Made by a program: the position numbers and the translations under genes
Assembly: GCA_001800285.1 (NCBI GenBank)
Contig: MGVC01000020.1
Span: 17,574-81,573, forward strand
From: Elusimicrobia bacterium RIFOXYA2_FULL_39_19
GTDB lineage: Bacteria; Elusimicrobiota; Endomicrobiia; CG1-02-37-114; XYA2-FULL-39-19
Length of the DNA stretch: 64,000 bases
Direction of reading: 5' to 3'
The notes under the pieces: generated by a model
Told to the model about the DNA's origin: nothing
Seen by the model: the letters and a program-made list of their open reading frames with translations, nothing else
The model's database searches: none
In this document: in pieces, positions 43,759-64,000 of the stretch
How positions within the stretch are numbered: the first letter of the stretch is position 1
Layout of the letters: the number at the start of each line of letters is the position of its first letter

Positions 43759-44349
43759 ATGATTTGCAAAATAAGAATATTAAAAATATCTTCAATATTA
43801 TTTTTATTACTCTGCTTTAATATTTCCATCCTTTGCGCAAAACCGCATCTTATAGTAAACCCGCTAAGAAATAATTCAGATTTCAAGGAAAAATGCTGGG
43901 ATATTTCCAGGGAATTTACTAAAGATCTAAAAAAAAGCCTTCTTAAAGAATTCTCATTAACAACTTCAACCGGTGAAATATTAAGTTCAATTATAGTTTA
44001 TGGCAATATAAAGGAATTTGATATTACTTCAAAGGAATACAGCGCTATGCCTTTGGTGGGCCAGCGTTTTTATGTTGCTAAAATTGTAGTAGAACTTTAT
44101 TTGTCTTCAGCAACGTCCTGCAGCGTTACTAAAATTATTTCAGAACAAGAAAAAACATACAATAAAATAACCGGTTTTTTTACTTTGCCGGAGGAAGAAG
44201 ACGAAATAAATACAAGAATGGCTGATTTTAGTAAAAGAGATAAGATAAAATGGGGTTCAGAAGAATTTAATAAGAGCATTCTTGGGAAAGCTCGTGATGA
44301 AGCAATAAGAGATTTGACAGAGAAAGTAGTGAAAAAACTGAAACAGTGA
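43759..44349 (+). CDS. Small exported protein of unknown function
   Basis: A 196-residue protein with a hydrophobic N-terminus (about residues 8-26) that resembles a signal peptide, followed by V-N-P-L-R-N-N-S and K-D-L-K-K-S-L-L. The N-terminal pattern recalls the N-terminal domain of CsgG/LpoB-type assembly proteins, but the match is weak and no lipobox is seen. It is the last gene of the surface operon, 42 bp after the PorQ-OmpA gene. Confidence 0.45.
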   Translation: MICKIRILKISSILFLLLCFNISILCAKPHLIVNPLRNNSDFKEKCWDISREFTKDLKKSLLKEFSLTTSTGEILSSIIVYGNIKEFDITSKEYSAMPLVGQRFYVAKIVVELYLSSATSCSVTKIISEQEKTYNKITGFFTLPEEEDEINTRMADFSKRDKIKWGSEEFNKSILGKARDEAIRDLTEKVVKKLKQ

Positions 44350-44371
44350 AGCACTATAGCAGCTGCTTCAT

Positions 44372-44392
44372 CTTCGGCAAAAACCGCCGAAG
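44372..44392. repeat. Small GC-rich hairpin
   Basis: CTTCGGC (44372-44378) and GCCGAAG (44386-44392), loop of 7 nt, in a stretch richer in GC than its neighbours. Confidence 0.5.
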
Positions 44393-44395
44393 CAC

Positions 44396-44466
44396 ATCCC
44401 CTGTCGCTAACCGCTTCTGCAATATTCGCGGCTATTTGCCGCATTGCATAAGCAGCTTTAGGGGAT
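44396..44466. repeat. Nested 71-bp palindrome
   Basis: Outer arms ATCCCCT (44396-44402) and AGGGGAT (44460-44466); inner GCTTCTGCAAT with ATTGCATAAGC, 10 of 11 paired; and a core GCGGC-TATTT-GCCGC. The element sits in the 236-bp gene-free stretch 44350-44585 and has higher GC than the flanking genes. Otherwise nothing is seen there. Confidence 0.6.
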
Positions 44467-44585
44467 ACCCTACAACGCATTCACGCCTAAGTTTACACTC
44501 GGGGCATTCTGCGAAAGCGGGTAAATAAAGATGCTTGGCTATGATGTTTGGCAGAATATTTTAAAAAGTTAGAGAGAGAATATTA

Positions 44586-61269: not shown

Positions 61270-61327
61270 TATTAGTAGTACATTTTTCCGCTCTTTTTAA
61301 AAGAGAGGATTGAGGAGAGTTAATAAG

Positions 61328-63736
61328 ATGAAAGTATCAAGATTATTTAATTTAATGTTAGTTTTGAGTTTATTATTAGTGTTTCCTGTAAAAAGTTTTG
61401 GTTCAGATATTCCGGCAGGAATGAAATGTTTTGATTTTGGCCCAGAAAAATCGGTTGTTTGGCCTGGCTTTGTGTCAGTGACAGCAAATATGTCTTATAG
61501 TAAGGATAAAGGTTTTGGCTGGGAGGGAACCACGCCGCCGCAAGCTGTGTTTAGAAAAGACCACCAGGCAGATGCCTTGGCAGGTGACTATATAGGCTGG
61601 CAAAAAAAAGATTATAACACTACCCCTGCTCCTCAATATACATTTATTTTAGATTTACCAAACGGTGATTATGAAATAGCAGTGATGGCATCAAATCCTG
61701 ACCCATTGAAACCTTACGGAATAATAGCTAATGGCAACAAGTTATTTTGGGAGGAAGTGACGATAGATAATTATGTTGAGAAATACTTAAATAGGCACAG
61801 GGCAGCGGCGTATAAACCTGACCAGGATGTATTCAAAGAGCATGTAGACCTGGAACATCCTGTGAAAAAATATATAGTTAACATAAAAGACGGGAAATTG
61901 AAATTACAGTTACAGTATGTTGCACTTGAAATGCTGGTAGCATATCCTCTTTCATTGCAAAAAGATGGAGATGAATTTTTGAAAACGTTATGGGACGAAA
62001 GGCGCAGTGAATTTTACAGCAGTGCTTATAAAGAAGTTTTGCCGGAGTCTAAAGACCCCAAGCCGGGAATATCAAAAGAAGATAAAGAAAAGGGTTTTGT
62101 TCTTTTTGTAAGGGATTATCTGGAAGAAATTTATCCTACAAGTTATCCGAAAAAAGAGGAAATAAATTCTAAAATTAATTTGACTGCTGCAAAAGGGGAA
62201 TTTGAACCAGCATTATTGGGGTTATGGCCTCTTAAAGAACTAAAAGGTATAAGGATAAAATTTTCAGATTTAAAAATGGAGGGCGCAGTTATTGCAGCAT
62301 CTTCAATAGAATTACGTAAAGTACGGTATTACCAGAAACAGATAAGTTCAGCTGATAATGTTCACACAATAGTGCCGTTTATTTTAGAAAAGCCCCAGCA
62401 GGATAAAATAGACATTCCAAAAGATGAGACCACCGGCTTATGGCTGACAGTAAATGTCCCCAGAGATGCAAAAACCGGCACCTATACAGGAAAAGTAGAA
62501 GTAATAACACAAGACGGCAAAAATTCTTCCGTCGCTATAGAGCTTGTCGTTCGTCCCTATTTATTGCCGGATCCGGAAGATATTTCTGCTACTCTTATGT
62601 GGTATTACAGAACGCCTCTCTGGAAACATGAACGTTATAAATTAAGCTGGTTTGGAGCTGAGGGTAAACCTTTGGCAACAAAACTGCTTGAAGCAGATTT
62701 AAGGAGCATGAAAGAACATGGCTGCAACGCTTTACATTTACCTGAAGTGCTTATTACGGCAGTTGACGGGAGCGGAAAAGTAACAGTGGATTTTTCAGAG
62801 TTAGCATGGGTTGTTGAAACAATGAAAAAAGAAAATATCGGGCTTAAACACCCTAATCTGCTTTTTACTCTAAAAGCAGCCAATCAGCTGATTAAAGAAT
62901 ATGAAATGGAAGAATTCGGTGATAAGTTTAATAAAACATTTAAAAATTATATTGCAGAATTAGTTAAATGGTTTGGAGAACAGAAAATTGATGTGCTCTA
63001 TTGGGTTGTAGATGAGCCAAGAGAAAGAAATCTTTCTTCCTGGAACCGTAATTATGATGATACAATGAAATATGTTCAGTTAGTATCTGAAGTTAAGGGT
63101 GCCAAGAGTTCGGTTTCTTTTATGCGTGATACTGAAGGCAGTAAGGATTATTCAGCCGGCGCTGAAAAAACAGACAATACTATAACCTTTCCAGGCGCTG
63201 ATTCTGTGAATCTGCGTCAAATTTCTTCAAACAGAGGAAAGGATAAATTATGGCTGCATAATTCCGGAAAAAATATTAACAGAACAGCGTTTGGTTTTTA
63301 TCCCTGGAGAGTATCTGCTTCAGGCCGGGTTCAGTGGAACTATGACTATCAGGAAATACCTTATTATCCTTTTGAAAATATGTGTGGGTTTACATGGGGT
63401 TCCGTAGCTGCAACGTTCCCGTCAAGTGAAGGGCCTGTTCCTACAACCTGGTATGAATGGTCCCGTGAAGGCATAGATGACTGGAGATATATAGAGCTGG
63501 CAGAAAATTTAATAGCAAAAGCAAAAAAAACTGGTAATTCTGAAAAGGTTAAGTTAGCAAAAGAAACAGAAAGGATTCTTAAAAATATAAAAGAAGAAAT
63601 ACCTGAAAGCCTTCCTATGGAAATAATAGTTGGAAATAACGGTATGGCTTATGACGGGCCTCTTTTGAAAAATACCCATATTTGGCGTGAAAAAATAGCT
63701 GATAGTATTGGAAAGTTGTTAGCTGATGAGAAGTAA
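61328..63736 (+). CDS. Exported GH123/DUF4091-like glycoside hydrolase with N-terminal malectin-like domain
   Basis: An 802-residue exported protein. Signal peptide 1-about 25. The N-terminal part (about 30-200) resembles a malectin or rhamnogalacturonan-lyase-type carbohydrate-binding domain (F-D-F-G-P-E-K-S-V-V-W-P-G-F). The rest (about 250-802) is homologous to the 29201 protein: G-F-V-L-F-V-R-D-Y, then Y-W-V-V-D-E-P (likely catalytic Asp-Glu) and E-G-I-D-D-W-R-Y-I-E-L. The frame is open to TTG 61310; ATG 61328 follows GAGGAGAG and is preferred. A very strong terminator at 63793 ends the transcript. Confidence 0.78.
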   Translation: MKVSRLFNLMLVLSLLLVFPVKSFGSDIPAGMKCFDFGPEKSVVWPGFVSVTANMSYSKDKGFGWEGTTPPQAVFRKDHQADALAGDYIGWQKKDYNTTPAPQYTFILDLPNGDYEIAVMASNPDPLKPYGIIANGNKLFWEEVTIDNYVEKYLNRHRAAAYKPDQDVFKEHVDLEHPVKKYIVNIKDGKLKLQLQYVALEMLVAYPLSLQKDGDEFLKTLWDERRSEFYSSAYKEVLPESKDPKPGISKEDKEKGFVLFVRDYLEEIYPTSYPKKEEINSKINLTAAKGEFEPALLGLWPLKELKGIRIKFSDLKMEGAVIAASSIELRKVRYYQKQISSADNVHTIVPFILEKPQQDKIDIPKDETTGLWLTVNVPRDAKTGTYTGKVEVITQDGKNSSVAIELVVRPYLLPDPEDISATLMWYYRTPLWKHERYKLSWFGAEGKPLATKLLEADLRSMKEHGCNALHLPEVLITAVDGSGKVTVDFSELAWVVETMKKENIGLKHPNLLFTLKAANQLIKEYEMEEFGDKFNKTFKNYIAELVKWFGEQKIDVLYWVVDEPRERNLSSWNRNYDDTMKYVQLVSEVKGAKSSVSFMRDTEGSKDYSAGAEKTDNTITFPGADSVNLRQISSNRGKDKLWLHNSGKNINRTAFGFYPWRVSASGRVQWNYDYQEIPYYPFENMCGFTWGSVAATFPSSEGPVPTTWYEWSREGIDDWRYIELAENLIAKAKKTGNSEKVKLAKETERILKNIKEEIPESLPMEIIVGNNGMAYDGPLLKNTHIWREKIADSIGKLLADEK

Positions 63737-63792
63737 ATATTTATATGAAGTTTTGTAGCTAAAAAGATACCTGTATTGTAAAAATAAGTGTG

Positions 63793-63844
63793 ATTAATAA
63801 AACAAAAAAGACAGCTTGAAGGCTGTCTTTTTTGTTTTATTAAT
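63793..63844 (+). terminator. Very long perfect terminator hairpin
   Basis: A perfect 23-bp stem (63793-63815 with 63822-63844) with loop TTGAAG. The stem contains AAAAAAGACAGC/GCTGTCTTTTTT and functions in both directions because its outer part is A/T-rich. It closes the GH123-like gene transcript. Confidence 0.9.
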
Positions 63845-63848
63845 TTTG

Positions 63849-64000
63849 TTCCGTAGAGATATATTTTTGATACGGCAGATAGCCGTGTTGATTAAAAATA
63901 TGAAAACGAAACGGCTGTGTTCCGTTGAATTATAGTTTTAAAATGTCGGATAGACATGATTATTAAAACTATGTTAATGAAACGGCTGTGTTCCGTTGAA
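63849..64000. repeat. Array of 71-bp structured direct repeats (runs off window)
   Basis: Two complete units (63849-63919 and 63920-63990) and the start of a third, with GAAACGGCTGTGTTCCGTTG plus AA repeated at 63908-63929 and 63979-64000, 71 bp apart. The units match at 54 of 71 bases. Each folds as an outer stem, an inner 5-bp stem and a GATA-type loop, and three of the changes between units are paired compensatory substitutions. No coding frame is seen in it. The end of the array is outside the window. Confidence 0.75.

Follow-up and report, generated by a model that had tools for sequence, protein, structure and literature searches.

The window analysed here, i.e., the whole stretch of 64,000 nt from contig MGVC01000020.1 of Elusimicrobia bacterium RIFOXYA2_FULL_39_19 (contig C20 of genome G000 in our numbering), closes with a short array of a 71-nt repeat (Table 1). 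Base 64000 of the window is also the last base of the contig (81573 bases), so that the assembly truncates the array and provides no count of units beyond this point: the third unit starts at 63993 (CCGTTGAA) and is cut off at 64000, the 15 nt at 63986-64000 being identical to the linker and the start of U2. The 71-nt period and the 17 differences among the 71 positions of the two full units, both reported in an earlier sequence-only reading, were confirmed on coordinates in the phase used there, and the small junction hairpin AACGG-CTGTGTT-CCGTT claimed in it is present. This 17-mer occurs exactly three times in the genome (twice in C20, once in contig C49) and once more with two mismatches; the CTGT of the linker between U1 and U2 takes the position occupied in other copies by a 4-nt tag. 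In comparison with 200 dinucleotide shuffles, U1 and U2 both have better folds, whichever strand is taken (z from -3.8 to -4.7). A terminator-like hairpin separates the array from the plus-strand ORF 61310-63736. It had been described as a strong terminator preceding the array, and the hairpin is indeed there; however, it is symmetrical, would act from both sides and, when the minus strand is read, comes after the array, an order repeated at a tRNA-Ser locus in C49.

Table 1. Hairpin units and associated features located in the window.
Feature	Position	Strand	Remarks
Composite MITE-like repeat, ~180 nt	44346..44524	-	edges TTAC (left) and TTCAC (right); boundaries by eye
Second hairpin copy in the window	44396..44466	-	73.8 bits; inside the composite repeat; one of 11 identical-core copies
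Symmetrical terminator-like hairpin	63792..63845	strand-neutral	fold -30.4 (+) and -28.2 (-) kcal/mol
Hairpin unit U1	63851..63914	+	64 nt; 71-nt period including the 5' linker; 82.0 bits (R1 model), 59.7 bits (R2 model)
Linker CTGTGTT between U1 and U2	63915..63921	+	forms a small alternative hairpin with AACGG/CCGTT
Hairpin unit U2	63922..63985	+	85.4 bits (R1 model), 61.8 bits (R2 model)
Linker CTGTGTT (63986-63992) and first 8 nt of the third unit	63986..64000	+	cut by the contig end

A BLAST search of the same genome revealed the unit in three further contigs, C49, C79 and C14, each time joined to the 3' end of a tRNA-Ser gene (the anticodons being TGA, GCT and CGA), with the CCG at the tRNA end common to tRNA and unit; C14 also contains another unit, of greater divergence. 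In this genome every tRNA-Ser gene recovered, three in all, has the unit at its 3' end. In C49 the tRNA-Ser gene is followed by the unit, the linker and the terminator-like hairpin, and such a hairpin comes after the unit in C79 as well. The tRNA transcript of these loci carries the strand opposite to the hairpin strand. The tRNA search of the genome gave at least 44 matches among the best 150 of 223 candidates scored, and 39 of them were typed. No tRNA-Ser(GGA) occurs among these 39; the five untyped matches are 71-74 nt long, which is short for tRNA-Ser, and the tRNA-Ser(GGA) of a relative, used as a query on this genome, gave five matches with the best E value of only 0.83. Judging from these sequence comparisons, a tRNA-Ser(GGA) gene may lie in the gap past base 64000 with the array trailing it. 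The earlier remark was that no gene seen there explains the array; from the arrangement in C49, C79 and C14, the explaining neighbour would be a tRNA-Ser gene located past the end of the contig. In the relatives G001, G002 and G003 the hairpin is absent from the 3' flanks of seven tRNA-Ser genes (one flank being just 39 nt long), where T-runs or unrelated sequence are found; the gene of G004 is cut by its contig end.

The composite repeat enclosing the second hairpin copy of the window is present, together with its hairpin, in 11 copies in the source genome, which have an identical core and different outer flanks. By eye, the end of the composite at 44346-44524 supplies the stop codon of ORF 43759-44349.

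The consensus of the unit, read by eye as CCGCCGAAGCTRTGNNNNCAATRCGGC-GAATA-GCCGYGNYTATTGNNNNCAYGTYTAGCGNAGGCGG with the hairpin base CCGCCGAAGC...GCGNAGGCGG, corresponds to a 71-position model with 26 pairs arranged in four helices of 7, 3, 11 and 5 pairs. There are two GNYT-like bulges of 4 nt each, only on the 3' strand, an internal loop GAA/GNA (3x3) and a terminal loop RRATA, and one fold is common to the matches in the source genome and in 12 other carriers. The compensatory changes noticed in the first two units are real: among seven units, 9 of 24 pairs were changed on both sides, and in a structure-blind MAFFT alignment of 47 copies (alignment A4; alignment A3 leaves out ten loci, L083-L092, with an identical composite) double changes were found in 25 of 26 pairs. 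This alignment contained 269 double-change cells versus 79 in shuffles, and 91.6% of its cells were paired versus 28.6-45.9% for slid structures; in a further set, of 57 distinct copies that were fitted to the model, 24 of 26 pairs were double-changed and 93.2% of cells paired. Pairing in these sets is inflated by the way the copies were collected, i.e., by a structure-model search, the model behind the 47 copies having been derived from seven of the units. The covariation in further copies bears out the early suggestion of a selected single-strand structure rather than plain satellite DNA. Cells with G-T exceeded those with A-C approximately 2:1 (41 versus 19 in A4, 40 versus 20 in A5), which points to the strand shown as the one that probably folds, with the reservation that the model search itself favours G-U.

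Two covariance models, R1 built from seven units and R2 from 47 copies, were used for the search of the genome and its relatives that the sequence-only reading had proposed, and it yielded many further copies with much further covariation. R1 gave 29 rows in the source genome, three of them repeating listed units on the opposite strand, as well as 18 rows in G034, 6 in G037, 26 in G048 (a genome of the same class as G000) and 1 in G001; in 14 genomes there were weak matches only (E 0.0019 to 0.68). Identical stretches identify G048 as an Endomicrobiales MAG, which places the window in the class Endomicrobiia of the Elusimicrobiota. With R2, 16 of 340 Elusimicrobiota genomes had matches at E <=0.001, and 13 of them are strong carriers: G000, G001, G024, G034, G037, G048, G164, G169, G172, G173, G174, G338 and G339, that is, 12 beside the source genome. 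The marginal genomes G059, G120 and G219 (26-28 bits) were left out of the carrier count, and copy numbers are lower bounds, as up to 14 candidates per genome were scored in the phylum search. The source genome itself has at least 39 R2 matches at E <=0.01 among the best 150 of 1054 candidates scored, so the repeat is not a feature of one spot. An exact-pattern search of a genome contigs database retrieved three loci, all from one Endomicrobiales MAG; another exact-pattern search of this database gave no matches, nor did the exact pattern in a viral contigs database, and plasmids and phages gave no match to one 71-nt query at blastn sensitivity. In eight loci the hairpin matched no Rfam family at gathering score, which tRNAs alone attained, and other families showed weaker overlaps below that score. 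Literature searches brought up no description of the hairpin family among the entries listed, which in itself does not prove absence.

With just two full units and a stop where the contig ends, the array could suggest a common tandem satellite or an artefact of assembly, options of the kind named earlier among those that would overturn the structural reading. However, the unit lies inside contigs C49, C79 and C14, the family is present in 12 other genomes, and the copies covary; these independent copies in other contigs and genomes refute a plain satellite or a misassembled tail, and we give this explanation next to no credence.

The relation of the hairpin to tRNA genes extends beyond tRNA-Ser. 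In a set of 119 copies, from which the three rows of the window were set apart, 21 are no more than 150 nt from a tRNA gene, whereas random positions in the same loci gave a mean of 5.45 and a maximum of 12 in 300 trials; the other 98 are not near a tRNA gene. Sixteen of the 21 are located on the 3' side of the tRNA (the copies of L002 and L004 overlap the tRNA gene and are on the 3' side by sequence), and 10 have the same and 11 the opposite orientation to it. In seven cases a broken copy of the neighbouring tRNA lies within 23 nt of the hairpin. By eye, the break falls on the same T-loop bond, GGTT|CRA, in four loci of other genomes: a Met tRNA copy split with two hairpin units (L219), an Ala copy (L235), an Arg copy with two units and a second small palindrome between them (L233), and a Gln copy with a pair of hairpins (L112). 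Also by eye, an Ala tRNA copy is broken at the D-arm in L107, while in L096 the 5' parts of Arg and His tRNAs are copied upstream with their leader bases; here the hairpin lies ~14 nt past the tRNA break near the D-loop. An intact tRNA is kept in each of these loci.

The surroundings of the copies were analyzed in the same sets after two short A5 rows had been dropped (this applies to the tRNA-distance, edge, loop, direct-repeat, register and ORF tests) and, further, rows too close to the end of a locus or resembling one another in their flanks, which left 85 non-redundant copies for edges, direct repeats and register and 88 for the loop test. The 4 nt 5' of the hairpin are weakly conserved (0.46, 0.15, 0.18 and 0.32 bits at -4 to -1), with at most 0.06 bits at -5 to -9 and at most 0.12 bits past the 3' end; the tag is of several types, such as GCCT, GGTG, GGGT and similar. 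Only 25 of the 119 copies lie inside ORFs of at least 100 aa versus a mean of 89.7 and a minimum of 79 for random positions in the same loci (200 trials), i.e., the copies are mostly intergenic. Tandem spacings are 71 nt in the source genome, 75 in G164, 98 in G172, 108 and 151 in G339, and 241 in G024 (the tandem counts come from a separate analysis, a loose pattern of our own having given two false places, L215 and L233, and missed copies). By eye, several arrays take in flanking DNA, e.g., half a terminator or part of a tRNA, and in G172 the loop region of one unit encloses a further palindrome. Flanking direct repeats of at least 5 nt are in excess (13 of 85 copies; shuffled mean 4.0, maximum 10, 200 trials), and in these 85 copies they have no fixed register, so target-site duplication is not established. 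Insertion into hairpin loops as a general rule was rejected: the joined flanks form a stem of at least 6 bp in 4 of 88 copies, the shuffled mean being 5.35. The 60 nt beside the copies fold at mean values of -20.0 and -14.3 kcal/mol versus -9.2 and -9.8 kcal/mol at 340-400 nt away, a comparison which includes the composites and is therefore not relied on. An all-against-all comparison of the fetched loci gave no filled/empty pair of orthologous sites. A single hairpin copy in G001 (L142, 1998-2067) stands between what look by eye like fumarase and panD genes and seems to supply the stop codon of the upstream gene.

Y1 transposases were searched for as candidate mobilising enzymes. They are encoded in all 13 strong carriers versus 162 of 327 other genomes, as raw counts that ignore phylogeny and genome size. 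No convincing hairpin was found within 1.5-2 kb of the 46 Y1 loci scanned out of 74 matches (those of the 13 carriers and G002, the three of G164 being outside the 46); the best match, of 17.6 bits (E 0.015), covers 28 nt, and linkage of the hairpin to these genes is thus unsupported. Two sources (PMC3733652; PMC8266576) describe REPs as palindromes of 20-40 or 20-50 nt (20-50 nt in PMC8266576) with a GTAG or CGTC tag, which may be reiterated in tandem together with flanking DNA. The present family resembles the REPs and BIMEs of RAYT (TnpA-REP) systems, so described, in being a short, intergenic, imperfect and bulged palindrome and in forming tandem clusters with flanking DNA. It differs in the length of the hairpin (65-71 nt; 26 pairs), which is above the 20-50 nt given there, in its two 4-nt bulges and 3x3 internal loop, in the absence of a RAYT gene beside copies at the 46 loci, and in having tRNA loci as hot spots. 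A tetranucleotide does precede the hairpin as in REPs, but it is weak and reads GCCT, GGTG, GGGT and similar instead of GTAG or CGTC. A true REP of a REPtron, to which the likeness and the presence of Y1 genes in every strong carrier would point, is an improbable identity for the hairpin; several Y1 genes have, by eye, inverted ends of their own.

As separate observations, the Y1 genes at L283-L290 and L301 are of ~220 aa, and several have short inverted ends, e.g., GGGGACGGTTCT / AACCGTCCCC or GGGACAGC / GCTGTCCC by eye; they look like a separate small insertion element.

Strong covariation, the unit following all three tRNA-Ser genes with a terminator-like hairpin next in C49 and C79, and the excess of G-T over A-C cells, according to which one strand is probably the folded one, would suit a structured RNA, namely a tRNA trailer or a small RNA processed from tRNA-Ser transcripts and kept for its function. 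Yet the tRNA transcript of the tRNA-Ser loci has the opposite strand, the orientations near tRNA genes are balanced, copies occur inside broken tRNA copies and composite repeats, none of the eight loci has an Rfam family at gathering score on the hairpin, and the hairpin is missing at seven tRNA-Ser genes in relatives; an excess of G-T would be just as compatible with single-stranded DNA. Hence an RNA of this kind is unlikely, and the RNA option of the sequence-only reading, taken as an RNA gene, does not emerge clearly from a dispersed family lying in either orientation to neighbouring tRNA genes.

Taken together, the results speak for a mobile, REP/MITE-like DNA hairpin that accumulates near tRNA genes rather than for a dedicated RNA gene. 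The array consists of two full head-to-tail copies and the start of a third of a dispersed 71-nt bulged hairpin, which probably spreads as a non-autonomous mobile palindrome of this sort. This reading is drawn from the covarying family with its single fold, the 11 identical-core copies with different flanks, the intergenic scatter, the weak tag edges, the tandem arrays and the broken tRNA copies, together with the clustering at tRNA genes, the 10/11 orientation, the hairpin-free tRNA-Ser flanks of relatives and the direct-repeat excess. Against it stand the missing Y1 linkage, the unregistered direct repeats, the lack of a filled/empty pair, the junctions that sit in hairpin loops no more often than chance, the weak mixed tag and the structure-model search, by which pairing is inflated. 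For such a mobile palindrome, a folded single strand of the hairpin would be recognised by a putative enzyme, copies would move, the array would grow after insertion, and DNA rather than RNA would be what is selected.

Among other known systems, palindrome-rich MITEs and IS200/IS605-derived elements are likewise non-coding and form near-identical copies, and one hairpin-carrying composite has the edges TTAC and TTCAC; unlike them, most copies in other genomes lack composite flanks. Integron attC sites have a RYYYAAC...GTTRRRY pair at the hairpin base. The hairpin shares with them one-sided extra-helical bases and an unpaired spacer near the base; the RYYYAAC...GTTRRRY pair is, by eye, missing from the consensus base, a GTTRRRY-like string being present at just one end of some tRNA-Ser units, and no cassettes were seen. 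tRNA-targeting integrative elements are similar in that a tRNA 3' fragment is repeated beyond the insert and the break is in the T-loop. Here, however, an insert of ~75 nt and repeat units of at most 241 nt leave no room for an integrase gene, and the D-arm cases copy the 5' part of the tRNA instead.

A more far-reaching version is a new mobile DNA hairpin with tRNA genes as its homing sites, which enters at the D- or T-loop, duplicates so much of the gene that an intact one is left, and multiplies in tandem, Elusimicrobiota tRNA loci being nurseries of nested hairpins served by a putative single-strand recombinase; we consider this possible, though on balance doubtful. The presence of the hairpin at one T-loop bond of broken tRNA copies, next to intact tRNA genes, raises a testable question, namely whether a tiny hairpin can enter essential tRNA genes and leave a working copy. 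The family adds a covarying, single-strand-shaped repeat without an Rfam match to a little-studied phylum, and its conserved bulges and loop could serve to find a protein that binds it. Such arrays may also explain assembly breaks, and a tRNA gene could be lost thereby.

Several tRNA loci carry features of other kinds. Other inserts also break the T-loop in L123 and, in G164, in L229, L231 and L251, again with an intact tRNA in the locus; in the latter three a different insert ending ACTTGTAGGA stands just before the 3' part of tRNA-Gly/tRNA-Arg copies, which start after GGTTC. In L002, broken 5' and 3' parts of tRNA-Ser(TGA) (1262-1288 and 1749-1765) flank the intact gene and are surrounded by other palindrome-like sequence. 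A broken tRNA-Pro copy of G048 (L104, 139-222) has, by eye, apparent small palindromes at its D, anticodon and T arms.
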